Source of the DNA: a virus
IMG/VR virus record: IMGVR_UViG_3300027977_000139
Coordinates: 1 to 30,206 of that record
DNA: 30,206 bases
Direction: 5' to 3' (one strand)
Position numbers and translations under genes: made by a program. Shown piece by piece: positions 1-15,190 of the stretch; position 1 is the first letter of the stretch; every line of letters starts with the position of its first letter. The notes beneath the pieces were generated by a model that saw only the letters and a list, made by a program, of their open reading frames with translations, did no database searches and had not been told where the DNA came from.

Positions 1-1839
1 GACTAAATCAAAGTTAAAATTATCTTCAATGTCTGCATCACCATCAACTACCCATATCATGTCAGTGTCACATAATGTTGCTGCTTTGATATGAGCATTG
101 TGAATGCCTTTTACACCATGTACTCGTTTTGCTCTAGGGCATTTACCAAGCAATCTAAAATAATTTTCTTCAGCATTGACTTCATTATAAGATATAAACA
201 CCACATCATATATACGATGCTTAGATACTGTAATATCGTGTTCTTTTTTCTCAATTAAAAATCTGTGATTGAACTCTCGTTGTCCGATAAGTTTATCTTT
301 AGAAAATAAAATAACACCATTGTTGTGAATTTCTGAGTCGTTAAACATGTGTTTGAACGTGTGATTTTCTTTACGATCATGATCGTACTTTCCGTCATTG
401 GGATCAAAGTATAAATTAAAAACTGTATTATCGACAACTTCTATTTCTGGCCATATTCCCCAGAACATCGGCTGTAGTTCATTGTTGGCAATTTTTACAT
501 ATTCATCGTAAGATGATAATACGTATTTGTTGTATCTATACCGACTAACAACTAACGGGTATTCTTTTTTGTCAATTAAATATCTACGATTAAATTCGCG
601 TTCCGAAATAATTCTTTCTTTTGAAAACAAAACTAGTCCACACAGGTATGTTTCTTTATCATTGCACGAGTTTTTAAAAACATGATTTTCTTTACGATCA
701 TGATCGTACTTTCCGTCATTGGGATCAAAGTATAAATTAAAAACTGTATTATCGACAACTTCTATTTCTGGCCATATTCCCCAGAACATAGGTTGAGTTT
801 GGTTTCCAAAAATCTGTAAGTATTCCGCGTAGGTTGTTAAAGTATATCTAGGGTAAACATAACGGCTAACAACCAAGTCATGTTCTTTTTTGTCAATTAA
901 GTATCTACGATTAAATTCTCGTTCTGAAATTATTTTTGTTGTAGAAAATAACACTACTCCACTTAGATATGATTCTTTATCGTTACACAAGTTTTTAAAT
1001 ACATGATTTTCTGATCTATCATAGTCAAAGGTTGAATCATTAGGTTTAAAGTAAAGATCAAAAATAGATGTATCTATTACTTCTGTTCCGTCCCAAACGC
1101 ACCAGAACATGGGTTGTTGACTAGTATTAATAATTTCTAAATATTCAGCGTAATTATTAATGGTATAAACAGGATATTCAAATTTACAAACTACTATATC
1201 GTGTTCTTTTTTGTCAACAGCATATTGTGTTTCAAATTCTTTTTTGGTTAAGAGTTTGAATTTGCTGCAAAGAATCAAACCAGTTAGGTAAAGTTCTTCA
1301 CCGTTACACAGATTTTTAAAAACATGATTTTCTCTACGATCATAACTGTTATGATGACTAAAATATAAATCAAAAATTTCTTCGTTTAGAATCTTGATTC
1401 CGGGAGACACTACCCAAAACATATCGTCTGTAATTGTTTGATATTCTTCAAACGTAGAAAGATGATATTTGTTATATTGTTTTGGCTTACTGGCAACGAT
1501 ATCTATTTCTTTTTTATCTGTAAAAAATCTATGATAAAATTCTCTACGAGAGATAGTTGTATTTTTAGGAAATAAACATATTCCATCATAGTGATCATTG
1601 TTTTTAAAGACATGAACATACATGTCGTCCCACTTATCGGCTTTATAATCTAATAGGTTAAATGAAGTTAGATCTACATCGTCCCAGATGACCCAGAACA
1701 TGTTTGTAAAAGATTTAGATTGTATTTCTTTGTATGATTTTATGTTTGTTAATTTTTGAGCAAGAGGATACCTAGACTGTATTGTTAACCAGTCTTTGTC
1801 ATTTCCATTGCTTGTTGAAACATAAAAAATATCATACAT
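1..1839 (-). CDS. Repeat-array protein with C-terminal glycosyltransferase-like domain (partial, 3' end outside window)
   Basis: I read this frame by hand: from ATG at 1839 it stays open for 613 codons to position 1, so the C-terminus lies outside the window. The start overlaps the stop of the upstream glycosyltransferase gene by 8 nt. Residues about 14-540 hold five repeats marked by MFW at residues 47, 140, 244, 351 and 458. Each unit then has a FDLYF-like strand, ENHVFKN, a LFSK-like strand, REFxRRY and DKKEHDIVVS. From residue 543 an intact GT-A type start follows: YDVVFISYNE, then PRAKRVHGVKG, then DGDAD at 599-603, matching the neighbour at 1832-2749 (DAD 61-63). The family recalls glycosyltransferases of marine T4-like phages. 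The likely role is sugar transfer, with the repeats as binding or scaffolding units; that role is inference. No signal peptide or membrane segment is seen. Confidence 0.85.
   Translation of the reverse strand, partial: MYDIFYVSTSNGNDKDWLTIQSRYPLAQKLTNIKSYKEIQSKSFTNMFWVIWDDVDLTSFNLLDYKADKWDDMYVHVFKNNDHYDGICLFPKNTTISRREFYHRFFTDKKEIDIVASKPKQYNKYHLSTFEEYQTITDDMFWVVSPGIKILNEEIFDLYFSHHNSYDRRENHVFKNLCNGEELYLTGLILCSKFKLLTKKEFETQYAVDKKEHDIVVCKFEYPVYTINNYAEYLEIINTSQQPMFWCVWDGTEVIDTSIFDLYFKPNDSTFDYDRSENHVFKNLCNDKESYLSGVVLFSTTKIISEREFNRRYLIDKKEHDLVVSRYVYPRYTLTTYAEYLQIFGNQTQPMFWGIWPEIEVVDNTVFNLYFDPNDGKYDHDRKENHVFKNSCNDKETYLCGLVLFSKERIISEREFNRRYLIDKKEYPLVVSRYRYNKYVLSSYDEYVKIANNELQPMFWGIWPEIEVVDNTVFNLYFDPNDGKYDHDRKENHTFKHMFNDSEIHNNGVILFSKDKLIGQREFNHRFLIEKKEHDITVSKHRIYDVVFISYNEVNAEENYFRLLGKCPRAKRVHGVKGIHNAHIKAATLCDTDMIWVVDGDADIEDNFNFDLV
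362..468 (-). repeat. 107-bp exact direct repeat, copy A (repeat unit 5)
   Basis: This block is identical base for base to 683-789, at an offset of 321 bp, which is exactly 107 codons. It encodes the PMFWGIWPEIEV to DRKENH part of repeat unit 5. The flanks differ from the first base outside the block on the right (c versus a) and just outside it on the left. Exact identity inside a diverged array points to recent duplication or gene conversion between units. Confidence 0.97.
683..789 (-). repeat. 107-bp exact direct repeat, copy B (repeat unit 4)
   Basis: This is the second copy of the block at 362-468. It keeps the reading frame and encodes the same stretch in repeat unit 4. The DNA on both sides (unit ends and the linker YxEYxxI) has diverged between the two units. 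Confidence 0.97.
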
Positions 1840-2749
1840 TCGTGGGTACCGGCATCTTAAAATAGGTGTCGTTTAAACTCATTGTTTCGTTGTATAGATC
1901 TAAAGTAAATTTACTTTGTTTGGCATCTAACCACGGCCAGTCCAGGCCTAGACCAATTTTTATTTTTTCACCTAGATTTTTAATCTCATCCTCAAGACCA
2001 TCACCGTTTACATCTTCGTAAGGTTTACCGTATTGAAAATATATGTCTCTAAGTATTTCAAAATCTCTTACATCGACATAATTCCATTGTGTGCAGTTAG
2101 CCATCCATGTTCCTAATCTAGCACCATAGACTGCATAGATACCGTTTTGTTCATGAGCACCGACTGTTGACCACATCCGCAGTCTATGAATATTGTGCCA
2201 CCATACACGCTGTGAGATTTCCATGGGAGGGATCTTTACTCCGTCCAACAATGTCATTTTTACACCTTCACGGAACCCTGCCCGCCATGCTTGAAAGGGG
2301 TTACCTGTGATGATACTTTCGCTAAATGTTAACGGAAAATTACGATAGCCATCTTCCCAACAGAAATCTACCTGGCCTCTATCACTGTCTGAATTTTCAT
2401 GTGTTCGCATATTCAGAACAAAATCTTTATTCCATATTTTCAATCCGCCATTTCCATAACGAAGTCCATTGATCGCATTACGACCACACCATCCATAGAC
2501 CTGTATCTTAGGATCGCTCATGTCAAGGTCGATGTTAAAGAATCTAGGATCTACAATATTGTCTGCGTCAACTGTGATAAACCAATCTGTTTCGCTAGTT
2601 TCTGCTGCGGCTTTATGAGCATGGTCTGATCCTTTGATTCCGTGTATGCGTTTTGCCCACGGAACCTTGTTACAAAGGTCAGCATAATGCAGATCTGCAT
2701 TAGGCTCGTCGTAGCTTAAAAAAATAACATCAAATTCTATAACTTTCAT
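1832..2749 (-). CDS. Glycosyltransferase-like protein, GT-A fold type
   Basis: 305 residues. The N-terminus reads FDVIFLSYDEPNAD (6-19), then AKRIHGIKG (32-40), then a hydrophobic strand ending in DADN (61-64), the expected place of a GT-A metal-binding DxD. A conserved WCGRNAINGLRYGNGGLKIW stretch (87-106) and several Trp-rich segments follow. NGDGLEDE (248-255) resembles a calcium-binding loop. The start ATG overlaps the previous gene's stop as ATGA, and its own end overlaps the next gene by 8 nt, so translation is probably coupled. The first 75 residues match the C-terminal domain of the gene at 1-1839, so the two are paralogs in that part. The donor and acceptor sugars cannot be told. Activity is likely but not shown. 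Confidence 0.8.
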   Translation of the reverse strand: MKVIEFDVIFLSYDEPNADLHYADLCNKVPWAKRIHGIKGSDHAHKAAAETSETDWFITVDADNIVDPRFFNIDLDMSDPKIQVYGWCGRNAINGLRYGNGGLKIWNKDFVLNMRTHENSDSDRGQVDFCWEDGYRNFPLTFSESIITGNPFQAWRAGFREGVKMTLLDGVKIPPMEISQRVWWHNIHRLRMWSTVGAHEQNGIYAVYGARLGTWMANCTQWNYVDVRDFEILRDIYFQYGKPYEDVNGDGLEDEIKNLGEKIKIGLGLDWPWLDAKQSKFTLDLYNETMSLNDTYFKMPVPTNV

Positions 2750-3366
2750 CGGTATGCAATCACATAGTTCTTAAATAAACGTCTTGTATAGACACTAAAA
2801 TTTTCATAACTGATGTTTTTTATAATTTTTGATTTACCCACCAGTTCATTTATTTTAACACTTACTGTCTCTAAAGTCAAATTAGGATCATTATATTCAG
2901 TGATATAAAAATCCATTACAGTATCACCATCCCAAATTATATTGCGTTGTCTATATGGGATCTTGGGGTGTTTAGTCCCTCCAAATTCCTTGCCTAGTTC
3001 TATTTTCAGTGTTTTGTTTTTCTTACTGTGGGTAAGATATATGTCTGGTTTTTCAATGTCCGAATACTTGCTTGATATTATCCTGTGCAGGATATCATCT
3101 ATTTTATACATGTTCTGAATTTCTGCAACTTCAATAGTATTTGAATTAATGTCTACCACACAATTACTAATTTTTATTTCCGATTTAATGATAGATTCTG
3201 CTAATTCTTGATCTATAGTTATTTTATGTTTTTGATCTGTAAACGCATGACTAGGACCTACACTAGTTACTGCCATGGTAGTAGGGTCAAACACTGCCAC
3301 AAACTCTATTGGTGGAAGCTTGTAATTTTGAATCCATTGATCAAAATCCATTAGTTTTTGTTCCAT
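2746..3366 (-). CDS. Unknown protein conserved next to phage glycosyltransferases
   Basis: 206 residues with no recognised catalytic motif. From memory, similar proteins of unknown function occur in marine T4-like phages (features FVAVFDP, VGPSHAF, IDDILHRI, DIEKPDIYLT, FSVYTRRLFKNYVI), but this was not searched. It looks like a soluble mixed alpha/beta protein; no signal peptide or membrane helix is seen. The start overlaps the upstream gene by 16 nt and its stop overlaps the next start as ATGA, which places it inside the same operon as three glycosyltransferase-like genes. A partner or accessory role to them is a guess from position alone. Confidence 0.8.
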   Translation of the reverse strand: MEQKLMDFDQWIQNYKLPPIEFVAVFDPTTMAVTSVGPSHAFTDQKHKITIDQELAESIIKSEIKISNCVVDINSNTIEVAEIQNMYKIDDILHRIISSKYSDIEKPDIYLTHSKKNKTLKIELGKEFGGTKHPKIPYRQRNIIWDGDTVMDFYITEYNDPNLTLETVSVKINELVGKSKIIKNISYENFSVYTRRLFKNYVIAYR

Positions 3367-4193
3367 ACTATCTCCTCGAGAATATTAATTATTTCTTTGT
3401 CAATTTTATCTTTTTCTACATAGTGTACTATGTTATGCTGTTGATAATTTCCTATTTTTAATTGACCTTTTCTATTAAGATAAAATCCCACATGATCGCT
3501 CCACTTGTCTGCAGGCCATGGCCAATTCTGTATCATTGGTTTCATGTGTACTATTCTAGGAAATTCTAAAGGGTAGGATATGTCGTCGGCGATATCTAAA
3601 ATTTTTGCTGCCAATGCAAATGCTTCATCTGTACCAATAACTTTAGGTTTGTGATCTGATAAAAAAACGTTTGAAAATTCTGTAGGATTTTTAATTATTG
3701 TTCTTCCAAGATCAAAAAATTCTTTAACTATCGTACTATTCTTTTTAAAAAAAGTATAGAAGCTGTAAAGATTAGGCAACTTATTTCGTTGAAATGCTTT
3801 ACGATAATGTTGATCGACTACAACTTCTCCTCTGTAGGTATAGCTGTTGTTAGCAACATAAAGTTCGCTGTTCTCAATAAAGTATTCTACCCAATGACTG
3901 TAGTCCCTCATGAACAACATGTCTACATCTAGGCATACAGTATAGTCAAACGGGGTAAGTTCATCCATCCACGATCTGCCATTCCAAAACGTCTGTTCAT
4001 TCCATTCTATAACATGATCAAACACCCAGGGACTCTTGATAGCTTTGAGTTTGTCTTTAGTGTCTATCACCAATGCTACCTGATCAAATCCCTGTTTCTG
4101 CGTATTTTTTATGCTCAATGCCAGTGCATAGGCCAGCTGTAGATAATCTACAGTTTCATGCTCTGCCACTACCAGTAGATATCCAAATTTCAT
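3351..4193 (-). CDS. Glycosyltransferase-like protein (GT8-like, DVD motif)
   Basis: 280 residues. MKFGYLLVVA opens a Rossmann-like strand; LALSIKN (24-30) is typical of the GT8-like helix after it. The predicted metal site is LDVDML (88-93), after YDTVCLD-like residues (here FDYTVCLDVD). GTDEAFALAAK (187-197) fits the usual Asp-Glu region of the acceptor side, and HNIVHYVEK (253-261) resembles the C-terminal His-x-x-x-Lys element of the family. Length is normal for this family. It begins with an ATGA overlap with the upstream gene and is the closest relative in layout of the gene at 4190-5050. The substrate is unknown. Confidence 0.75.
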   Translation of the reverse strand: MKFGYLLVVAEHETVDYLQLAYALALSIKNTQKQGFDQVALVIDTKDKLKAIKSPWVFDHVIEWNEQTFWNGRSWMDELTPFDYTVCLDVDMLFMRDYSHWVEYFIENSELYVANNSYTYRGEVVVDQHYRKAFQRNKLPNLYSFYTFFKKNSTIVKEFFDLGRTIIKNPTEFSNVFLSDHKPKVIGTDEAFALAAKILDIADDISYPLEFPRIVHMKPMIQNWPWPADKWSDHVGFYLNRKGQLKIGNYQQHNIVHYVEKDKIDKEIINILEEIVWNKN

Positions 4194-5050
4194 ATCAACT
4201 CCAACAATCGATCGCTGTTTCTTACCACACTCTGTTTGTTCATCACATGTATATCAATATTACTAAAAGATGCTGCACAATAGTTTGAATCAAACTTTGG
4301 AGATACTAACACAGTTAATTTGTCGGCATCGACTGCGTGTAAGATATCCCTGTCTTGTAATGTCAGTATCGGAGGTAATCTTCCTGTGTAAGATTCTTCA
4401 AATCCATCAATAATATGCTTTGCCACACTAAATGCTATATCATTTCTATATTGTCTTGAATCAAATCTATAAACGTCAGCAAAATATCCATAATTATCTT
4501 TAATATAATTTACCAGATTAAAAAACATCTCAGTGTTTTCATTCTTGGTAAACATCACGGTAGTAGCCCAATATAATTTTATTCCTACGTCAGATACATA
4601 TCGATCATGATATCCTAACCTAGGATTATCATAGATATCATTAGCAGACTCGGCTATCATTAAATCTTTGTCAATATTCCAATATTCTCCCAATCTTGTA
4701 GAAAAAATTAAGAAATCGCTATCAATTAAAAGAGTTCTGTCATAAGGAGTTAGATCCCAAGCTGAACATCGGTTTGAATTTACAAAAGGAATCACACTGT
4801 TAGTTTCACCATCGTGTAATCTTCGCATGTTATTGGTCTGTGGTCTGTCTGTCACAATAATATGCTCAAACAATTTGTTAGCCTTGTTGTAAATTTTAGA
4901 TTGCTTCATCCATTCTACTGTAGATGCATCAGTGATCAATGACGCAGGAACTCCGAGATGTTTTTTGGCCAGGCCGCCCGATATAACTGCCATTAGAGCA
5001 TAATCTACTGCAGGACTATTATGTGCATAAAGCAGTATACCTTGAGTCAT
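4190..5050 (-). CDS. Glycosyltransferase-like protein (GT8-like, DSD motif)
   Basis: 286 residues. ILLYAHNSPAVDYALMAV (5-22) starts the fold. LTPYDRTLLIDSDFLIF (100-116) carries DSD at 110-112, preceded by the same TPxD-hydrophobic strand as DVD in the next gene. RNDIAFSVAKHIID (202-215) matches the family's Asp-containing helix, and IHVMNKQ (267-273) resembles the His/Lys ending. It overlaps the 117-residue gene upstream and the glycosyltransferase gene downstream by 4 nt each (ATGA). The two adjacent GT8-like genes look like an old tandem duplication, with low identity but the same motif order. Confidence 0.75.
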   Translation of the reverse strand: MTQGILLYAHNSPAVDYALMAVISGGLAKKHLGVPASLITDASTVEWMKQSKIYNKANKLFEHIIVTDRPQTNNMRRLHDGETNSVIPFVNSNRCSAWDLTPYDRTLLIDSDFLIFSTRLGEYWNIDKDLMIAESANDIYDNPRLGYHDRYVSDVGIKLYWATTVMFTKNENTEMFFNLVNYIKDNYGYFADVYRFDSRQYRNDIAFSVAKHIIDGFEESYTGRLPPILTLQDRDILHAVDADKLTVLVSPKFDSNYCAASFSNIDIHVMNKQSVVRNSDRLLELI

Positions 5051-5400
5051 GATGACAACAATTTTTCTACCGATCTGCTTTTTTTGAGATTTTGATTGTG
5101 TTCAAAATACTGATTAGTGGCTTCAAAATATCTGCTGAAACATTCATCTCGAAATTTTTCTAGATCGTCAATTAATACAGGATTATCATTGGTATCTATT
5201 AACACCACTCCAGAATTTCGACCCTTGGTCAATAACATTTCTAAAAAGGTCAGCAGAGTTTGGTCAATACGAAATAATCCTCCGTTATGCCCAAGAGTTA
5301 ACTTGGCGGAAATTTTTTCTTTGAGTATCTTGCGTTGGATTGAAAAGGTCTGCTGATAGTTAGCAAACTCTAAGGCTTTTTTCAGCTGTGCATCACTCAT
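5047..5400 (-). CDS. Small protein of unknown function, first gene of the glycosyltransferase operon
   Basis: 117 residues, mostly helical by eye, with many Lys, Glu and Asn. Visible elements are ALEFANYQQTFSIQRKILKE (9-28), LGHNGGLFRIDQTLL and a VVLIDTNDNPVLIDD hairpin. No catalytic motif is recognised. From memory it resembles small unknown proteins of marine T4-like phages. The ATG at 5400 has the best ribosome binding site in the window (AAGGAGA, 5405-5411) and a TAAATA promoter 28 nt upstream, so expression of the following overlapping genes may depend on it. Confidence 0.8.
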   Translation of the reverse strand: MSDAQLKKALEFANYQQTFSIQRKILKEKISAKLTLGHNGGLFRIDQTLLTFLEMLLTKGRNSGVVLIDTNDNPVLIDDLEKFRDECFSRYFEATNQYFEHNQNLKKSRSVEKLLSS

Positions 5401-5404
5401 AGTT

Positions 5405-5411
5405 TCTCCTT
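5405..5411 (-). promoter_or_regulatory. Strong ribosome binding site (AAGGAGA)
   Basis: On the minus strand AAGGAGA lies four bases before the ATG at 5400, a near-perfect Shine-Dalgarno match. Neighbouring genes have weaker sites or rely on overlap with the upstream gene. It fixes the start of the 117-residue protein and the start of the operon. Confidence 0.85.
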
Positions 5412-5427
5412 GATTATATACGCACTT

Positions 5428-5435
5428 TATTTAGT
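5428..5435 (-). promoter_or_regulatory. Candidate late promoter (ACTAAATA)
   Basis: The minus strand reads ACTAAATA in a 60-bp gap, the second-largest gap here. It is a 6 of 8 match to the T4 late promoter TATAAATA and resembles the CTAAATA core described for T4-like cyanophages. The start codon is 28 nt downstream, leaving room for a leader with the ribosome binding site. A 4-bp inverted repeat (CACT/AGTG) brackets the core; it may be chance. Confidence 0.55.
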
Positions 5436-5460
5436 GGTATATATCTATAGAAGGAAAAAA

Positions 5461-6414
5461 CTAGGGCGAAGGTGCTGCTATGCTGATCGTAGGCAGTGTC
5501 ACACTAAAAGGTGTAAATGCTGGTGATAATACCCCAGTCGCATATAACACATTAACATTGACTGTAAAGGTTCCGTCAACTGCATCACCGGGGGGAGGAC
5601 TAACAGACTCAAATGGATCTGTGTAGTTGTCAACGAAACGCACACGTAATTGCAAAATTCTTGCTGACCCTGTACTGTTATCTGGTTGATCAGCACATCG
5701 GGCATCTATCTGTAAGCTGTTTGATCCATAGGGGCTTGATCCAGTAGTACTGGACCACTGTTGAAAACTGTTGGTACATCTATACCAATTTTGACCGTTA
5801 GAACTACCAGGTAATCCTGCAGTTGGAGTATTGCCGCCAAACGACTGTGTGCCTACTGAACTTAGCAGTGATGTCCATTCATTAGCCTGGGTCGTAGTCA
5901 GCGTAGTAGCTGTTCTTGAGGCTGAAATTCTTACTAATCCGCCACTGTTAAAGAAATGTCTCGCTTGATCGGCGGTAGCAAACGTTACTGTTATAGTGTT
6001 AGAAATCAGACTGTTCCACGTTGATCCGTATGGTCCTGGCCAACTTGTAGATGCTGATCCAAAACTCTGCGTGGCAGATTGGCTACCAGCAACTGTAAAT
6101 CTATTACTGACTATGGTATTTGCTATAGTATCATAGGTAGTAACCGGAGCATCTACAGCACTAAATCTAATAGCGCCACCTTCTAGTACTGTTACTGGGA
6201 CTGGATCTGATCCAAAAATATGCCTGTAGGAGTTGATGATGTCAAATCGAAGATTAGTGTACTGCCCGACTGTAACTTTGGTTCCTTCTGTTACCGCAGA
6301 GCTTTGAAGAATCTGACCCCATCCAGAATCTATATTGCCAACGCCCAACACATTGGCAACTTTATTTCTGATAGAATTGTAGTCAGATTCTCTTATTGTG
6401 TCATTAACAGCCAT
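5461..6414 (-). CDS. Putative virion protein, paralog of the gene at 6449-7357
   Basis: 317 residues. It aligns with the neighbouring 302-residue protein along its length: an N-terminal helical part (SDYNSIRNKVANVLG), a QSS/LRFDII segment, a central conserved core with ADQARHFFNSGG, a SFGG-like turn, and a Pro-rich hinge SPPPGDAVDGTF near the C-terminus followed by beta strands. The middle is rich in Ser, Thr and Asn, as in fibre or adhesin beta domains. No enzyme motif is seen. The position downstream of four fibre genes suggests a virion or fibre-tip protein. The start ATG at 6414 has a weak ribosome binding site; a TGTAAATA element lies 24 nt upstream. Confidence 0.8.
   Translation of the reverse strand: MAVNDTIRESDYNSIRNKVANVLGVGNIDSGWGQILQSSAVTEGTKVTVGQYTNLRFDIINSYRHIFGSDPVPVTVLEGGAIRFSAVDAPVTTYDTIANTIVSNRFTVAGSQSATQSFGSASTSWPGPYGSTWNSLISNTITVTFATADQARHFFNSGGLVRISASRTATTLTTTQANEWTSLLSSVGTQSFGGNTPTAGLPGSSNGQNWYRCTNSFQQWSSTTGSSPYGSNSLQIDARCADQPDNSTGSARILQLRVRFVDNYTDPFESVSPPPGDAVDGTFTVNVNVLYATGVLSPAFTPFSVTLPTISIAAPSP
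5942..5973 (-). repeat. 32-bp exact repeat shared with 6900-6931 (conserved core of paralogs)
   Basis: The DNA is identical to 6900-6931 and encodes ADQARHFFNSG in both paralogs, while surrounding sequence has diverged widely. Identity at the DNA level over synonymous positions suggests gene conversion or very strong constraint. The second copy is at 6900-6931. Confidence 0.9.
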
Positions 6415-6448: not shown

Positions 6449-7357
6449 TTAACTACCTGTAATTGCTGAAAGTGAATATGTTGGACTTGTAATGGTAAAT
6501 GTTCCTGATGGTATCAGACTGCCAGAAGCTTTGAGTTCATCTACTGCTATAGTCAATGTACCGTCAACTAAATCTCCAGGTGGGGGAGACGGTTCCGGAC
6601 CCGGGTCTACATAATTATCAGCAAGTGTAACTTTTAAAAATAATTGAGTGGCTGTTCCTGTGCTGTTGTTGGCCACATTAGTTTTGGCCTCAAGTTTAAA
6701 GGTATTGGAACTATATGGGGAAGAAGCTGAACTTTGAAAATAAATTTGGTAAGCATTGGTTAGTGTGTAGTAATTTACCGTAGGGTCTGTGTCTGCACCA
6801 AATGATCTAGTAGCTACAGAGTTTAAAAAATTTACCCAGGCGTTGTATTGTTGAGTCGGTGTTCCGCCGGTTAACGTGGTTGTAAATCTCATTTTACTAC
6901 CACTGTTAAAGAAATGTCTCGCTTGATCGGCAGACGCAAAAGTTGCTGTAAGAGTGGCTTCGCATTGTGTCGACCAAGAGGTTGATCGAATTTTAGAATC
7001 GACAACAGTAATTACTGCTTGGCTAGCATTTATTTGAAATCTATTGGAATCTGCAGTTGCTAATAGAGTCGCATAATTGTTGTTGGGAGCAGACGCACCA
7101 TAACCTATTACATCTCCTGTAGTTAAAGTTACAATACCGGCAGGAACTATGCCGTCTTGATGCAACCTAATGCTAACAATATCATATCTCAATGCATCCC
7201 ATTGTGCCTTTGTGATTGTATTACCAACAAATACATCTGCGCTCTGCACAGCCTGGCCATATCCTCGACCGGCTATGCCTGTTCCTAACAAACGTTCTGC
7301 TGTGTCTTGTATAGCCACATATTCTGAGGCTAAAATATCTGTGCCTGAGGCTGCCAT
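6449..7357 (-). CDS. Putative virion protein, paralog of the gene at 5461-6414
   Basis: 302 residues. Order of parts: N-terminal ASEYVAIQDTAERLLG, RYDIVSIRLHQ, then a beta-rich middle with ADQARHFFNSG, a SFGADTDP turn, and the hinge SPPPGDLVDGTL before the last strands. The shared landmarks with the downstream 317-residue protein occur in the same order and spacing. No signal peptide, membrane helix or catalytic motif is visible. ATG at 7357 follows the upstream stop after one base, so it is translated with the 599-residue fibre gene. A role in the virion is inferred from position. Similar proteins are recalled from marine phages as hypothetical. Confidence 0.8.
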   Translation of the reverse strand: MAASGTDILASEYVAIQDTAERLLGTGIAGRGYGQAVQSADVFVGNTITKAQWDALRYDIVSIRLHQDGIVPAGIVTLTTGDVIGYGASAPNNNYATLLATADSNRFQINASQAVITVVDSKIRSTSWSTQCEATLTATFASADQARHFFNSGSKMRFTTTLTGGTPTQQYNAWVNFLNSVATRSFGADTDPTVNYYTLTNAYQIYFQSSASSPYSSNTFKLEAKTNVANNSTGTATQLFLKVTLADNYVDPGPEPSPPPGDLVDGTLTIAVDELKASGSLIPSGTFTITSPTYSLSAITGS

Positions 7358-7358
7358 A

Positions 7359-9158
7359 TTATAATACCACCGATTCTATAAGTTTAACATCTTCGCTGTC
7401 ACTGCTTTCCATAGCAACGGCAAAAGTATCCAATCTATCTTGAGCAACTTCTGCACATCCCCAATTACTAGCAACTAGTCTATCACCTTTACGCACTACC
7501 CCTTTAACCTTGATTGGCACCCGCCCTTTCAAGGCCACATATATTCCGCCTTCTAGTTCGCTGTTCATCATGATCGCTGGGTTTTCACTGATAACTCCTA
7601 TAGCCAGCTCACCGTAGGTAGATGCAGTTACTTCGGCAGCACCCCCTACTACCATTACTGTGCCTACTTCATATTCTGCATCAGAAAGATATTTTTCAGC
7701 TAAATCAGCATAACGTGCAGAGGTAGCGGTACCCTGGAAAAGATTAGCAGTAATATCACCGCTAGAATTACGTGCTACTATACTATAGGCAGTGGCTGTT
7801 AGCTTTGCAGTTCTGTATTGAGTGCTAATTGTAGCACCATTCCATGTTGGGTCCACTACGGTTCCACTAGCATCAACAAACGTTCTGTCTGACTTATCTG
7901 TAGTACCGATAAATTGATTGGCGGTTATATTACCGGTAGAGTCTCTAACTGTAATTGTAGCCAGTCCCGATCCAGAAATAGTCGTCGACGGAAATAGACC
8001 AGTTAACTGTGAAGCAGTTGTTGCAGTGGCTGCTGAGCCTGTGCAGTTTCCTGTTAGTGTACCGATTATGGACACACCTACAGCGCCAATCTGCTTGGTA
8101 GCTGAATTGACCAGTATTGTGGTATCTGAAGCCAGCACATTTCCAGTATGTGCTCCTGCAGTTGCGCCGGTAACATTACCTGTTAAATTTCCGGTGAACG
8201 TAGCAGAATATACATTGTTCCAACGAGATACAGGAACACCTAAAGTGTAAGCATTATCATTACCGGGCTGCAGGCTGGTGCTGTTGATTACTGCAATATC
8301 ACGTTCATCTGTAGTTTCAACGACTGTAATTCTAAATGTTATGGGATTTCCTAGGCGATTTTCGACTATTACTTCGTCGCCACCTTCAACCCGAAGTCTA
8401 AAATCATTACCATCTCCTACTGAAAATCCTGGATCTCCAAACGATACTTCACTGGTAAATGCATTTTCTCCCTGCTTTATATATTGATCTGCAGTAAATC
8501 CGCCAAGGCGAGTTGCATTGCTTGCTGTACCCCACATCACATAGTCATCTGTGCCTACACCGGTCTGAGACTTAGCCAATGTAAAACCTTTCTTGACCAC
8601 TGTAAAATCGTCTATGGCATTTTGTGCGTTGTCTAGGGTGAAGGCTGTTTTACTAAAAATTCCTATGACCTTGTCATCAGCTATAACTTTGAGTATAGTA
8701 TGTGGCCCTACTGCCGTGCCTACTGTGCCTTTCACCACTGCTGCACTTACAATCGACGATCCTAGATCTGGACTAGCTTCGGGTCCTATAAGTGCAAAAT
8801 CTGTACCAGTCCATGCATATAATTGTTTAGCCGCAGAATCCCACCAAAAATCACCAGTGCTTAACCCGCTGGGTGCGGTGGTGCTAACTTCTGCTCCACC
8901 TGCCAATTTAAATCGTGAGCCATCATAAAATTTTAATTTTTTATTAGCACTGTCAAACCAAATTTGACCAGTAACTACTTTAGGAGGAGCAGAGGTGTTA
9001 GAAAAGTTTTCCAAAAGATGCAGGAAATTTTCATTCTGTACTTCACCATAACCTGCATAGTTTTTACCTACAAAACGCAGATCCGATGTGGAGTCAATAG
9101 TACCGTCTGCTACAGATACAAAAAAAGCTCCATTAAATTTATCTACTTGATATGCCAT
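7359..9158 (-). CDS. Tail fibre-like protein with shared N-terminal domain and DLAE-type C-terminal module
   Basis: 599 residues. The N-terminus (about 1-170) is the shared domain of the four-gene fibre array: VGKNYAGYGEVQNENFLHLL, then ENFSN, GQIWFDS and a second copy of the WxDS/FYDG pattern (WWDSAAKQLYAW). The middle is a Gly, Thr and Ser-rich beta repeat region (TGNLTGNVTGA). The last 115 residues (from about 483) start with ARYADLAEKY and continue with GTVMVVGGAAEVT, AIGVISENPA, ALKGRVPIKV and RKGDRLV; the gene at 9221-11200 has the same module. That module resembles C-terminal chaperone or autoprocessing domains of phage fibres, which I cannot prove. GGAGT (9165-9169) is its ribosome binding site, and TATAAATA lies 21 nt upstream. 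Confidence 0.85.
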   Translation of the reverse strand: MAYQVDKFNGAFFVSVADGTIDSTSDLRFVGKNYAGYGEVQNENFLHLLENFSNTSAPPKVVTGQIWFDSANKKLKFYDGSRFKLAGGAEVSTTAPSGLSTGDFWWDSAAKQLYAWTGTDFALIGPEASPDLGSSIVSAAVVKGTVGTAVGPHTILKVIADDKVIGIFSKTAFTLDNAQNAIDDFTVVKKGFTLAKSQTGVGTDDYVMWGTASNATRLGGFTADQYIKQGENAFTSEVSFGDPGFSVGDGNDFRLRVEGGDEVIVENRLGNPITFRITVVETTDERDIAVINSTSLQPGNDNAYTLGVPVSRWNNVYSATFTGNLTGNVTGATAGAHTGNVLASDTTILVNSATKQIGAVGVSIIGTLTGNCTGSAATATTASQLTGLFPSTTISGSGLATITVRDSTGNITANQFIGTTDKSDRTFVDASGTVVDPTWNGATISTQYRTAKLTATAYSIVARNSSGDITANLFQGTATSARYADLAEKYLSDAEYEVGTVMVVGGAAEVTASTYGELAIGVISENPAIMMNSELEGGIYVALKGRVPIKVKGVVRKGDRLVASNWGCAEVAQDRLDTFAVAMESSDSEDVKLIESVVL

Positions 9159-9220: not shown

Positions 9221-11200
9221 TTAAGACCTTCCTACCATTATTTCAATTTCTCCCAATTCTCCATGAAAATCTTCCAAAGCTTTACCTATAATCTGGCCCG
9301 CTTTTGGTTCTAAATTTTCACAAGATCGAGCATATCCTTGTCCCGCACTAATCATAATATCGCCTTTCCGGATCCTACCCACTACCTTACAAGGTACACG
9401 TCCCTGCAGAGCTACGGCTACAACAAATTCACCCGTGCATGCACTATTCATAAGATGTGCAGGTTCAGTGCTTACTATTCCGGCTACAGCTGTGGTATCT
9501 ACAGAAGCCAGCGTAACTTCAGTTGGGCCGCCTATCATTAATACAGTTCCTGCTGGATAGTCTGCGTCAGCTACATAGTTTTCGGCAAGGTCACTGTACC
9601 GAGCTGCGGTAGCAATCCCTGTGAATACGTTGGCAGTAATATTACCGTTATTGTCTCGAGCAGCGATGCTATAGGCTGAGGCTACAAGTTTTGCAGTTCT
9701 GTATTTGGTGCTAGCAGTGCTATCATTCCACACAGGATCTGTCACAGTATTTGTAGAATCAATAAATGTTCTATCTGTATTATCTGCCGTACCTTTAAAC
9801 TCATTTGCGTAAACTTTGTTAAATCCGCCAAACAACGGAGACGGAAATCCAATGTTTGTTTGTCTGGCATCTCCTGAAATAATTGCTGGAGCATTATCGG
9901 CTCCATAAGAAAGAGCTGTTGAAGAGTTGACGAATGAAATATCAGGACCACTTGGTCCCATATCAAAATTTAGAGTACCTGTGCTGGATCGTATAGTGGG
10001 CACCGTGGTAGAGGCAACAAACATTTTTAATTGTCCAGCACTACCTATGTTGACTCCGTTGTCATTTACATTTAGATCGATCAGCGTTCCAACCTGTTGT
10101 AGGCTGGACTGAGTAACTGTGGAATTTAAAATAGCACCTGTTAACGTTGTTGCTGCTGCTGGTACCGTAATGTCACTGGTGCCGTCAAAGTTTACACCGT
10201 TTATTTTTCTTGCTGTCTGTAATTGAGCTGCTGTAGAAGCATTTCCTATTGTAGAGCCTATAAATGAATTGGCTTGTATCACATTAAATGTACTGGTACC
10301 AATAGTAGCAGTCACATTACCGGTTAGATTACCTACAAAATTAGCAGTAATAGTACCAGCTGAAAATCCACCTTCGGAGTTTCTGGCCACCACTTTTCCT
10401 ATTACATTTGATGGTGTTGCATCAACAGCCCAAGTAGTTGCTGAACTACCATCAAAATCTGAACCTGTGATGTAGGTGCCTTTAAACAGTTTGTTGGTTG
10501 TGGATGATTTTACTGTGATATTTTGTTGGCCGTCAAATCCTACGCCATTTATAGTTCTTGGTGTGCTAAGTTTATCTGCACTACCAGAATTACCTGTGAT
10601 ATCACCTTTAACTTTGGCTGTAGATGATAGATTAATACCTGCGATTAAACTGCTGTCAAATCCTGCAACTGCCGAACTGGCATTAATATTAAATGCTTCT
10701 GCAGTGATAATAGCTACGGGATTATCATTAGTGGTCAATATGATAACTGGTTTAGCATTTCCTAAAGTGTTGTCTAGCGTTGTGGATCTGGCTTTAGTAA
10801 TTCCAAATCCTGCTACTGCTTCAGCACCAATAAATACCCATTGATTTCCGGTGTATACCTTTAATTGATCAAGCGTGGTATCCAACCATAGAGCTCCTGC
10901 ATTGGGACTTAGAGGGGCTGTTGTGCTTAGAGTGGCAGCACCTATAGGGCTCCATACGTTTCCGTCGTAGGCATAAGCCAGGTTGGCAGTGGTATTAAAC
11001 CAGATTTGTCCCTGTAAAGGTCTCGATGGCGGAGATACATTAGCAAAATTTTCCAGTAAGAAAACAAAGTTTTCATTCTGTGTCTCACCGTAGCCTACGT
11101 AATTTCTGCCAACTAGGCCTAGACTAGTGGAAGTATCAATAGTTCCATCTTCTAGAACTAGTAACTGCGTTCCACTAAATTTGTTTACTATATAGGCCAT
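9221..11200 (-). CDS. Tail fibre-like protein, paralog of 7359-9158 with the same C-terminal module
   Basis: 659 residues. The N-terminal domain again shows VGRNYVGYGETQNENF, LLENFAN, GQIWFNT and LWLDTTLDQLKVYTGNQWVFIG. Residues about 170-530 are low-complexity fibre beta repeats (TGNSGSADKL, INGVNFDGTSDITVPAAATT, repeated ASTAAQLQTAR-like steps), a pattern seen in many phage tail fibres. From about residue 535 the module ARYSDLAENY, GTVLMIGG, GRVPCKVVGRIRKGD closes the protein. It starts with ATG at 11200 after AGGAGCG; the gap to the upstream gene is 20 bp with no promoter core. Host-binding function is inferred. Confidence 0.85.
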   Translation of the reverse strand: MAYIVNKFSGTQLLVLEDGTIDTSTSLGLVGRNYVGYGETQNENFVFLLENFANVSPPSRPLQGQIWFNTTANLAYAYDGNVWSPIGAATLSTTAPLSPNAGALWLDTTLDQLKVYTGNQWVFIGAEAVAGFGITKARSTTLDNTLGNAKPVIILTTNDNPVAIITAEAFNINASSAVAGFDSSLIAGINLSSTAKVKGDITGNSGSADKLSTPRTINGVGFDGQQNITVKSSTTNKLFKGTYITGSDFDGSSATTWAVDATPSNVIGKVVARNSEGGFSAGTITANFVGNLTGNVTATIGTSTFNVIQANSFIGSTIGNASTAAQLQTARKINGVNFDGTSDITVPAAATTLTGAILNSTVTQSSLQQVGTLIDLNVNDNGVNIGSAGQLKMFVASTTVPTIRSSTGTLNFDMGPSGPDISFVNSSTALSYGADNAPAIISGDARQTNIGFPSPLFGGFNKVYANEFKGTADNTDRTFIDSTNTVTDPVWNDSTASTKYRTAKLVASAYSIAARDNNGNITANVFTGIATAARYSDLAENYVADADYPAGTVLMIGGPTEVTLASVDTTAVAGIVSTEPAHLMNSACTGEFVVAVALQGRVPCKVVGRIRKGDIMISAGQGYARSCENLEPKAGQIIGKALEDFHGELGEIEIMVGRS

Positions 11201-11220: not shown

Positions 11221-13077
11221 TCATGGTGGTAAAGTTGTATCTGTCTGCCATGTCCACGCACCGGCCACTATCAAGAATGTTTTGATAATTCTTGTGGTTG
11301 AAATACTTGCTGCTGTAATGTTTGCTGTAGGAAATGTAATACCAGTAACAGCTTGAGCAGTATTAAAAAGATTATCTATAACGAAAGGATTGGTACTAAT
11401 GCCGGGAGGTAATGCATTGATAGACAACGAAGTGCTAGAATTACTTAATAACGTACACAATATCCTTGCATAAGTTCCATTCCTGAATTCAGCTACTGGT
11501 GCAAGATTATTTAATATATTGTTGATAATGTATGTGTTAGATTTTCCATCAGACAGATCCATGCTAAACACCAACGGTCTTAATTCAATGGTGTTGTCTA
11601 CGTATTCTTTTGTAGCAGCATCCTGCTGTCCCACTGGATCTTGCAGGCCTGTTATCCTAGGAGAACCGATCAATGCTACGTTTCCTGAGCCGTCTGGCTC
11701 AAGTTCGATATCGAAATTCGTAGATAATGTGCTGATCCTGTGATTTTCAAAACGCAGTTGGGCCACAGGTGGTAGTCCCGGGCCAACGTTGATAACATTT
11801 AGTGTACCAAAAGATGTAACTCCCGGAATGCTGGTAATTGCAGATCCAAGACTGTTTCCATCAATTACTTTCACTCCTCCTATCTGCAACTGTTTACCTG
11901 CTGCTAAATTTACATTCTCACTGACGTCAAATACTCCATCAAACGGAGGAGAAATCAAACTTCCGGTAGACCTGTATATGATAGTTTTATTATAGGAAGA
12001 CGAATCATTGGCGTCGGCTCTAATAATAATTCCTGCGCCGTTGGCTGTAGTTTCACTGGGTGATACCGTAGCAGCCAATGTAAGTGTTTGATCCTCTATA
12101 ACAACATTTTCGGTGTTAATTGTTGTGGTGGTTCCTTGTACTGTAAGGTCACCGCCAACCACAAGACTTCCTCCTAGATTCACTGTGCTATCAAGAAAAC
12201 TCGAATACATATTTATTGAGCGTGTTACAGGTTCTATAAGGATAGCATTTTCTAGGTCAAGATTTTTTCTAACTCTTAAAAACAAACTTTTGTCAGTGGC
12301 AGAATTGCCTATAAACACATTTCCCGAAGTAACTGTGAGAGTTAGTTGCCCCGCAGATCCGATAATGAGTCCTGCATCATCTTGAATATTAATTTGGCCG
12401 GCAAACGTGTTACCTGTATCTGTTCGAGCATAGATAGTAGCTGCTGCACCTCCTAGTTGTTCTGAATTGGTACAAGTAACTCGAAACTTGATGTTGGCCA
12501 ATGTGCCTGCGTTGAATCCAGGTTCTATAGTACCACTAAATCCTATAATAGCAAGTTTAGGCGTGAAACTATCTTTAGAAAAAATCCCCAACAATATGCC
12601 GTTGTTATAAAGATAGGTAATAATTTTAGTCTGATTAAGAGTGTCAAGTATACTGGCAACTTCTAATCCGCTTTTACCTTGGATCGTGGAATATGCTGGC
12701 CCAATTAGTATAGGCAGGTTGCCATCGAAGAAATATAATTGCGCACCTACATCATCAAACCATAAATCACCAATAGACAGAGTAGCAGGCTGTGAACTGG
12801 AAATAGTTGCAGAGCTTACAGGAATAAATGTCGTACCATTGTAAACCTTAAGTTTATTTTCTGCGCTATCGAACCAAACTTGACCTTTGACCGGATGTAG
12901 GGGAGCAGTAGTACTAGAAAAGTTTTCTAGAATCTTAACAAGATTTTCATTAAACGCTTCGCCGAATCCGCTGTAGTTTTTTCCGATAAGAGTGATGTCA
13001 GTAGATAGTGTATCTATTTGTCCATCTGCTACTGTGGCTACAATAGTTCCGTCTGTTTTGTTTATTTGATATGCCAT
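11221..13077 (-). CDS. Tail fibre-like protein with distinct C-terminus
   Basis: 618 residues. It shares the array's N-terminal domain (IGKNYSGFGEAFNENLVKIL, GQVWFDS, LWFDDVGAQLYFF). Near residues 300-345 it has LGGSLVVGGDLTVQGTTTT followed by NTENVVIEDQTLTL, a fibre motif known in many phages, and near 476-500 ITGLQDPVGQQDAATKEYVD, a typical segment before trimerising coiled or beta parts. The ending (residues about 505-618) matches none of the neighbours and finishes GAWTWQTDTTLPP. The start ATG at 13077 has AGAGAA upstream and lies in a 13-bp gap. A role as a trimeric fibre or baseplate pin (in the positional range of T4 gp10/gp12) is inference. Confidence 0.85.
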   Translation of the reverse strand: MAYQINKTDGTIVATVADGQIDTLSTDITLIGKNYSGFGEAFNENLVKILENFSSTTAPLHPVKGQVWFDSAENKLKVYNGTTFIPVSSATISSSQPATLSIGDLWFDDVGAQLYFFDGNLPILIGPAYSTIQGKSGLEVASILDTLNQTKIITYLYNNGILLGIFSKDSFTPKLAIIGFSGTIEPGFNAGTLANIKFRVTCTNSEQLGGAAATIYARTDTGNTFAGQINIQDDAGLIIGSAGQLTLTVTSGNVFIGNSATDKSLFLRVRKNLDLENAILIEPVTRSINMYSSFLDSTVNLGGSLVVGGDLTVQGTTTTINTENVVIEDQTLTLAATVSPSETTANGAGIIIRADANDSSSYNKTIIYRSTGSLISPPFDGVFDVSENVNLAAGKQLQIGGVKVIDGNSLGSAITSIPGVTSFGTLNVINVGPGLPPVAQLRFENHRISTLSTNFDIELEPDGSGNVALIGSPRITGLQDPVGQQDAATKEYVDNTIELRPLVFSMDLSDGKSNTYIINNILNNLAPVAEFRNGTYARILCTLLSNSSTSLSINALPPGISTNPFVIDNLFNTAQAVTGITFPTANITAASISTTRIIKTFLIVAGAWTWQTDTTLPP

Positions 13078-13090
13078 TCTGTTTCTCTAA

Positions 13091-15190
13091 TTAAAATAAC
13101 GGTGGTCCAGATCTAATAATGTAATTTATTGTTAGAAATGGATTCATAATACCAATCGGAGTACTTGTTGTTGGAACGCCTAACATGTCTCCAGTTCTTT
13201 CTAAGTACTGTGCCTGTCCAGGAGCAGTAGGCCCTAGCCCGGTAGTTGCTAGTGGATCTATTGTGGTTGATACAAATACAGCTTTATAATCTTGATTTCC
13301 AGAACTTAGAGTGTGTCGATGTTGTGGTAAATTAGCCGGAATTAATGTGGCTGAACTTGAGCCGGCATCTCCACCAAGAGTAATAGCTTTTACGTCTGGT
13401 ACACGACCAGCAGTGCCACCTCCTCCATCTATACCACCACCTATTGCTAATGGCACTGTTCCTGCATTATCCATATTATCTTTGCCTAACGCAAATCTGC
13501 CTCTTAAATCTGGTAATCTAAATGTAAGAACCCCAAGCAAAGGAGATGCTCCATTGTAGATAGGACCAATAACATCAAATAACGCCTGAAACTTGGTTCT
13601 TTCAACCTCCGAGCCATCGCAGAATAAAAATCCATATGGAGCTATAGCCCCTGCATAAGGTATAATACCACCAATTGGGATTCCCATGTCTCCTACGAAT
13701 GCATCTCTAGTTTGTTTTAATAGCCCTGACGATGCCAGTGTTGCGTCACTACTTCTGTAGGTCAACACATAATCATTTGGTTTTGAGGTAAACGCTTCAA
13801 TTTTATTAGCAATAATATTGGCAGTCAGTGAAGTATTGAATACCTTAATATAGCTGCCTAGCTGACCGTCAAACTGTACAGCCGGACTTGCTACATCTCC
13901 TGTCAGTTGAAAACTAGTTACGTTGGAGAGAGCAGTAGCAGTGTTAGCATTACCACTGATGTTTCCGGATAATACACCTTCTATAGTATCTGCTATAACA
14001 GTTTTAGCTCTTATAGTTCTCCAACGTTTAGTAGTTGTCCCAAGATCGTGTAAATCGGTGTTCTTCGGTTGTATGAGATTGGTCTGCGAAACGCCAGTAA
14101 TGTCAACACCATCACCTACCAATAAATTTTTAGTAACTGCAGCGCCTCCGGCAGTTCTAAAACTTCCATTATTTAAGTTTGTGCTTGCAGAAATATTAGT
14201 TACTATTACCGAACCAGTGAGTGTTAAACTACCGTCAATGTCCAAGGCTTGGCTAGGAACGGCTTGATTGATTCCTACTTTGTTGTCTACTACCTTTAGA
14301 ATCGTAGATGGAATACCGTCTCGATTTAATTGAATATCTATAGAACTACCTGCAGCACTATTATATATTTTAGCTGCTGTGGCTGTTGTTCCAATATTAA
14401 ATGTTTGATCAACCCCAACTGTAACACCATTGTTATTTCTTATATTAAATGCAAAATCTGTGGTATTGATTGTGTCAGATCTTAAGAATTTTGAAGATTG
14501 AATTATTAATCCACCCACAGTCAAGCCATCGGCTGTAGATGCTGGTCCAAATAGTGTTGGTTCAAATCCGCCCGAAAATTGTGCTACTTCAACCGGAGTG
14601 CTAGGATTAGCTATGTTTATACCGGAACGAATAACATCAAATCCAGATATCAATATTTTAGGTGTAAAACTATCCTTGCTAAAAATAATTACCGGTATAT
14701 CTGCAATATAAAATGTAAGAACATATCTATCAACGTTATCTGAGTCTGCGATCTTTTCAATTACAGGACCATATCTCAATCCGCCCACTGAGCTTTCTGT
14801 AGGACCTACAAGAATCCAACGTGATCCTGTGAAAATACGCAACTGTTGGTTAGTGGTGTCAACCCATAATTCACCCACCTTGCTGACTGCCACTGAGGGT
14901 TCGCTTACACCTTTCTGGATTCCAGATGCTGCTTTCCACGCAGTATTATCCCAGATCTGAAGAATTCCATCTGTACTATCATACCATAACTGTCCTTCTA
15001 TGGGGTTAACTGGTTCGTCAGCAGATGCAAAATTCTCTAACAATGCTAAAAAGTTTTCTGCAATAATCTGTCCATATCCGGTAACATTGCGTCCTGGAAA
15101 TGTAAGACTGGTGTCTGTACTAGAGGTATTATCAAAAACCGTTATGGGTGTTTTATTTTCTTTATCTGTAAAATTAACTATATATGGCAT
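13091..15190 (-). CDS. Short tail fibre-like protein with phage tail-collar domain
   Basis: 699 residues. The N-terminal domain is the most divergent of the array (PGRNVTGYGQIIAENFLALL, GQLWYDS, LWVDTTNQQLRIFTGSRW). From about residue 503 a tail-collar type domain follows: GIPIGGIIPYAG, APYGFLFCDGSEV, then RLPDLRGRFALGKDN (about 559-573) and LPQHRHTL (about 617). The collar family is found in T4 gp12, the short tail fibre, and many other fibres. The gene order (behind a gp6-like gene and a giant baseplate-region gene) fits a gp12-type function; it is not shown. ATG at 15190 follows the previous stop after a further TAG triplet (3-bp gap), with AGAGG upstream. Confidence 0.88.
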   Translation of the reverse strand: MPYIVNFTDKENKTPITVFDNTSSTDTSLTFPGRNVTGYGQIIAENFLALLENFASADEPVNPIEGQLWYDSTDGILQIWDNTAWKAASGIQKGVSEPSVAVSKVGELWVDTTNQQLRIFTGSRWILVGPTESSVGGLRYGPVIEKIADSDNVDRYVLTFYIADIPVIIFSKDSFTPKILISGFDVIRSGINIANPSTPVEVAQFSGGFEPTLFGPASTADGLTVGGLIIQSSKFLRSDTINTTDFAFNIRNNNGVTVGVDQTFNIGTTATAAKIYNSAAGSSIDIQLNRDGIPSTILKVVDNKVGINQAVPSQALDIDGSLTLTGSVIVTNISASTNLNNGSFRTAGGAAVTKNLLVGDGVDITGVSQTNLIQPKNTDLHDLGTTTKRWRTIRAKTVIADTIEGVLSGNISGNANTATALSNVTSFQLTGDVASPAVQFDGQLGSYIKVFNTSLTANIIANKIEAFTSKPNDYVLTYRSSDATLASSGLLKQTRDAFVGDMGIPIGGIIPYAGAIAPYGFLFCDGSEVERTKFQALFDVIGPIYNGASPLLGVLTFRLPDLRGRFALGKDNMDNAGTVPLAIGGGIDGGGGTAGRVPDVKAITLGGDAGSSSATLIPANLPQHRHTLSSGNQDYKAVFVSTTIDPLATTGLGPTAPGQAQYLERTGDMLGVPTTSTPIGIMNPFLTINYIIRSGPPLF

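Follow-up and report, generated by a model that had tools for sequence, protein, structure and literature searches.

A phage protein with a predicted tandem array of pseudo-glycosyltransferase units ahead of a terminal glycosyltransferase domain

Pseudo-glycosyltransferases have so far been described as single chaperone or accessory domains (PMC7185993, PMC6082870). COSMC (GT31) and the accessory domain of LH3, for example, are GT-A domains that were judged non-catalytic and that serve, or are fused to, an active enzyme (PMC7185993, PMC6082870). Glycosyltransferase (GT) genes are also found in phage host-recognition regions. An account of the pelagimyophages describes a host-recognition cluster in which GT and radical SAM genes lie near baseplate and tail-fibre genes, and a role in modification of the host O-chain has been proposed there for GTs that related aquatic phages encode in the tail-fibre region (PMC7029224). 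Here, a viral contig was examined in which a GT-like domain is preceded by tandem repeats of about 100 residues. The complete 30,206-base record of this contig is referred to as the window.

The repeat gene and its surroundings

The window encodes a fragment of a baseplate wedge subunit, a 4,604-aa virion structural protein, and several tail-fibre- or collar-like proteins. The structural genes are followed by a minus-strand run of GT-like genes; the repeat gene, downstream of the baseplate, tail-fibre and collar-like genes and on the same strand, is the last of the run and is truncated by the contig end. The run includes a 286-aa GT-like gene with a DSD motif (4190..5050, minus strand) and a 280-aa GT-like gene with a DVD motif (3351..4193, minus strand), both assigned by motif reading, the latter with phrog_1903 (unknown function) as best family match at E 0.002. 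A 206-aa gene of unknown function (2746..3366, minus strand) and a complete 305-aa GT paralogue (1832..2749, minus strand), with VDADN instead of VDGDA, complete the run upstream of the repeat gene. This paralogue and the repeat gene overlap by 8 nt, and therefore translational coupling of the two is likely; the same overlap was counted in 120 of 189 repeat-gene ORFs, from loci that partly duplicate each other.

Elsewhere in the window, four successive tail-fibre-like genes (7359-9158, 9221-11200, 11221-13077, and 13091-15190) share a similar N-terminal region of ~90 residues and form a paralogous run. Two adjacent proteins of 317 and 302 aa (5461-6414 and 6449-7357) are paralogous in appearance, and no match for the second was found in PHROGs.

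The repeat-protein ORF (1-1839, minus strand) encodes 613 aa, is open at the contig end, and contains five ~100-residue repeats (residues 14-112, 108-212, 209-319, 316-426, and 423-533). The repeat region (217-1839, minus strand), which an earlier note on this DNA had located correctly, runs into the start of an intact GT domain at residue 542. Unit 1 (residues 1-107; 1519..1839) is a putative pseudo-GT-A unit that retains the first strand and helix (MYDIFYVS...) and has WDD in place of DGD. The putative pseudo-GT-A units that follow are shortened, with DGD replaced by SPG in unit 2 (residues 108-208; 1216..1518), WDG in unit 3 (residues 209-315; 895..1215), and WPE both in unit 4 (residues 316-422; 574..894) and in unit 5 with its linker strand (residues 423-541; 217..573), all on the minus strand. 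The terminal GT is represented by its first 72 residues (YDVVFISY...VVDGDADIEDNFNFD; 1..216, minus strand) before the contig end truncates it; in complete relatives the domain has ~227 residues. A 107-nt tract in unit 4 (683..789, minus strand) is identical to one in unit 5 (362..468, minus strand), and this pair is a substrate for recombination or gene conversion.

The strings quoted in the earlier note, TDMIWVVDGDADI for the intact domain and QPMFWGIWPEIEV for the repeats, were exact, as was its list of the five DGD replacements. One string had been misplaced: FDVIFLSY, attributed to the terminal domain, comes from the neighbouring complete GT gene (1832-2749, minus strand). The actual start of the terminal domain, YDVVFISY, resembles MYDIFYVS of unit 1 at least as well.

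Homology and predicted fold of the repeat units

Relatives were drawn from viral and genome collections, and an HMM was built from the repeats with the GT domains excluded. This repeat-only HMM matched 45 of 46 terminal GTs (best 1.4e-10 at Z = 10,000), with zero matches among shuffled or reversed controls. Of the 38 paralogues in the GT family to which the next gene belongs, it matched none, and the link therefore runs through the terminal GT. Profile-profile comparison of the repeats with the terminal GT gave a probability of 97.6% over 87 columns. Furthermore, blastp aligned the window array with the complete GT of a near-identical relative, L023, at E = 7e-6 over residues 1-97 (unit 1). 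Across the family, 6,828 array-GT pairs were found at E < 1e-5 (best 4e-22), and no pair fell below 1e-3 when arrays were compared with shuffled GTs.

Searches of Pfam, PHROGs, and NCBIfam with the window protein or the near-identical relative yielded no significant family, and sequence-profile searches of the PDB yielded chance matches only. Matches to PF00535 and PF13641 below threshold were present in 22 (best E 1.1e-3) and 21 of 74 members, respectively; the PF00535 gathering cut-off was not reached, with L028 scoring 17.5 bits versus 23.3. PF08437 (Glyco_transf_8C) matched some repeat arrays (best E 1.5e-6) and was rejected, its score being the sum of repeated ~20-residue matches, none of which reached significance by itself.

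AlphaFold modelling of the five repeats was based on 57 aligned arrays from which the GT domains had been left out (pLDDT 85.4, pTM 0.65). When the array model was compared with the PDB using Foldseek, matches 1-4 were the PBCV-1 capsid glycosyltransferase (probability 0.99-1.00), other leading matches were GT-A enzymes such as beta-1,4-galactosyltransferase 7 and GlyE, and GT-A enzymes and related nucleotidyltransferases together made up most of the top 50; the best E-value was 8e-3, and none was below 0.001. In a viral structure library the array model matched two uncharacterised phage proteins (2e-12 and 6e-11), then mostly glycosyltransferases. A model of the last unit of L023 (unit 4) together with its GT (pLDDT 91.4) gave 93 PDB matches at E <= 0.001, coming mainly from the GT domain; GT2-type enzymes such as chondroitin polymerase led them, and all 50 matches listed were glycosyltransferases or their complexes.

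In the units, a strand, a helix, and a strand precede the DxD position, and a short strand and two more strands follow it; a long strand ends each unit and leads into the next. The full first strand and helix are kept only in unit 1, units 2 onward being without one N-terminal beta-alpha segment, either the first or the second. Many internal units retain a YDIF-like strand at the start but lack the next ~25 residues. None of the units extends as far as the GT's C-terminal helices. The repeat units thus appear GT-A-like in homology and in predicted fold, although the fold E-values are modest. The proposal that the repeats derive from the GT was supported, as repeat-only HMM matches, blastp, and the predicted GT-A fold of the repeats alone all agree, and the profile searches produced no credible alternative family. 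Derivation of the array from the GT-A fold is accordingly considered very probable. The repeats had also been described as copies of the nucleotide-binding half of the enzyme; the GT-A origin holds, but the extent does not, with units reaching the strand after the GGVKL-like strand.

Loss of the first Asp from each copy, noticed in the window, extends to the whole family. The first DxD position was Asp in 0 of 418 units, with Trp in 250, Pro in 85, Ser in 37, and Tyr in 22, while the third position was Asp, Glu, or Asn in 361 of 418. The last DxD Asp was retained in 93% of first units, which may therefore have residual metal or ligand binding. All 34 terminal GTs sampled had both Asp residues. 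Two segments that vary little or not at all among terminal GTs, the N-P-x-N-x-L-x-Y-G loop and DMTTS, do not occur in the units, and 98-99% of internal units retain the G and L of the GGVKL strand, which belong to the fold core. The units also have conserved features of their own, namely the His in H-V-F, a nearly invariant Glu, and a KKE stretch, the strongest being a charged segment, E..R...KKE, where one unit joins the next.

The repeat units are under purifying selection: between relatives, dN/dS of the array was 0.07-0.13 (about 0.1), close to the GT value. With this selection and their own conserved signature, the description of the copies as decayed is contradicted. The units combine a GT fold lacking DxD with retention under selection, as expected of a pseudo-GT, and they lack both the DxD and the C-terminal acceptor/base region of a catalytic GT-A enzyme. 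On these sequence features, the repeats would be non-catalytic. The terminal domain has both the GT-A fold and DxD and is probably active.

Copy number and distribution in relatives

Complete relatives carry 1-14 units followed by one intact GT, so the fivefold amplification reported for the window is true of this phage only. In a tree of units, the first units formed one clade (28 of 29, support 0.90), the terminal GTs formed another (32 of 34), and the middle and last units were scattered and intermixed. From this tree, unit 1 appears to be a single old clade, and the other units appear to have been gained and lost within lineages. The gene of L023 (6896-8881) equals the window gene minus exactly 321 nt and is otherwise identical in the shared part, with the breakpoint inside the 107-nt tract that unit 4 of the window shares with unit 5. 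This is consistent with recombination that removed or added one unit; the 321-nt difference may also be an assembly collapse of the tandem repeat.

A standalone GT without repeats is encoded in three Photorhabdus genomes (L112:3995-4699, L113:1178-1882, and L114:3995-4699), which supports the GT as the ancestral form. In L112 it adjoins three further GT-like genes.

Several relatives depart from the common architecture. The longest array observed (L158:998-5866; 14 units, 1,622 aa) alternates VPSDV-like and VW(Y/H/T)D-like units as a two-unit super-repeat. An extra N-terminal head of ~110 residues occurs in L138, L149, L153, L156, L162, L163, L165, L167, L168, L180, and L181; its alignment with the GT (E 8e-5) covers the span from DxD to GGVKL, in which it often keeps an Asp (VDPD, VDPG, VDDS), and it is perhaps an older, more diverged copy. 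In L186 the repeat gene is split into overlapping frames (2686-4014, with 4 units, and 3992-5890, with 4 units and the GT), through either a frameshift or an assembly error.

More than 500 stretches encoding this enzyme family came up in a viral scan, and the best 80 of them carry the array almost throughout. Radical SAM-like ORFs were present in 139 of 193 loci and lay within 4 kb downstream of the repeat gene in at least 54 of 107, a lower bound from a count that excluded starts overlapping by more than 100 nt. The downstream gene of L018 encodes a twitch-domain radical SAM protein (NF033640; 312.9 bits versus a curated cut-off of 170). In L185 (4001-6895) such a domain is fused behind the GT (361.4 bits versus 170), and in other loci it is a separate gene adjoining the repeat gene.

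The carriers of the array are uncultured T4-like phages: a T4-type gp23 capsid gene was found in 6 of 8 long related records, one of the gp23-type proteins being closest to those of jumbo phages (66-71% identity). In a collection of isolated phages, there was no match for the array, the next-gene GT, or the Photorhabdus homologue, and the 14-unit relative gave chance matches only; a tail protein and a capsid protein, used as controls, did match.

Possible role of the array and comparison with known systems

Taken as a whole, the protein is probably best explained as a pseudo-GT array, in which one intact, C-terminal GT2-like GT-A domain is preceded by tandem pseudo-GT units of the same fold. 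A GT-A domain would have been duplicated, would have lost its metal motif, and would then have been amplified into a conserved array. One old duplication would have produced the first unit, while later units would have lost one N-terminal beta-alpha segment and would grow or shrink in number through recombination between units. The units would transfer no sugar; their conserved surfaces would build a semi-rigid arm holding the terminal GT, and possibly the GT of the overlapping upstream gene as well, with a length set by the number of units. The arm would keep the enzyme on a repetitive acceptor, e.g. a tail-fibre protein or a host surface glycan.

A scaffold or positioning arm, rather than a sugar-binding or catalytic array, is the most likely role, at a little less than an even chance, based on domain order, conservation, and the precedents of COSMC (PMC7185993) and the LH3 accessory domain (PMC6082870). 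A more speculative extension, which we hold to be unlikely, would make the pseudo-GT an evolvable spacer, the unit number (1-14), as changed by recombination, setting the reach of the terminal GT along its acceptor and thereby tuning glycosylation pattern and host interaction.

Alternatively, in line with the sugar-binding array suggested in the earlier note, the array could be lectin-like, each pseudo-GT unit retaining an emptied sugar or glycan site and the whole gaining avidity for a polysaccharide acceptor. Trp residues often stack on sugars, and Trp occupies the first-Asp position in more than half of the units; the shared GT-A-like fold and the location among GT-like genes next to those for baseplate and tail are also consistent with this reading. 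However, the presence of Pro, Ser, or Tyr there in many units is unusual for a shared binding residue, and the strongest unit-specific conservation, the E..R...KKE junction segment, is structural in appearance. A lectin-like array is therefore possible but rather doubtful.

The gene follows baseplate, tail-fibre, and collar-like genes in the same orientation, a position that would also suit a virion component, in which the array would serve as an adhesin or spacer resembling a fibre and the host surface would be bound by the terminal GT-like domain. This is quite improbable, as every terminal GT sampled has kept DxD and the immediate neighbours, GT-like genes and a radical SAM gene, encode enzymes and not structural proteins. 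Some GT-A families, GT14 and bacterial GT6, work without DxD (PMC7185993), and active, metal-independent repeats would account for a GT-A-like core preserved under purifying selection; with neither the N-P-x-N-x-L-x-Y-G loop nor DMTTS, and ending before the C-terminal helices, the units make this highly improbable. A resemblance of short aromatic and acidic motifs through chance or convergence can practically be dismissed: internal units of the window average only 16-20% identity with terminal GTs, yet the HMM controls gave no matches and the blastp controls none below 1e-3, the array model provides independent fold evidence, and the secondary-structure elements of units and GT come in matching order.

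A tandem pseudo-GT array of up to 14 units before one active GT was not found in Pfam, PHROGs, NCBIfam, or the isolated-phage collections searched, nor was a description of one found in literature searches. The pseudo-GT array suggests that dead enzyme domains can be reused as building blocks; here an enzyme fold has become the repeating module of a protein, and forms of 0 to 14 copies are open to comparison. Furthermore, the repeat-GT protein is a testable candidate for glycosylation of fibres or host surfaces by large aquatic phages.

With respect to known systems, the pelagimyophage cluster of T4-like aquatic phages resembles these loci in having both kinds of gene, GT and radical SAM, close to those for the baseplate and tail fibres, but the available part of that account describes no pseudo-GT array (PMC7029224), and the major capsid protein of one relative here has its nearest counterparts in jumbo phages. 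The best viral structural matches to the array, UniProt A0A6J5LK21 and A0A6J5L5L5 from uncultured Caudovirales phage (E 2e-12 and 6e-11; 804 and 1076 aa), are named only 'Uncharacterized protein' and are probably members of the family. GT2-type GT-A enzymes (PF00535, PF13641; chondroitin polymerase K4CP, which tops the PDB matches of the unit-plus-GT model, polypeptide GalNAc-transferases, and RmlT) share DxD and the GT-A fold with the terminal domain, whereas no Pfam GT match here exceeds the gathering cut-off and the repeats are without the first DxD Asp and the C-terminal part. The best solved structural match to the repeats, the viral PBCV-1 capsid glycosyltransferase (PDB 2p72, 2p6w, 2p73), is a single small enzyme of ~200 residues that has a part in glycosylation of the major capsid and has no repeat array. 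Finally, COSMC and the LH3 accessory domain are single domains or proteins, while the units described here occur in phages as 1-14 tandem copies that are shortened after the first.
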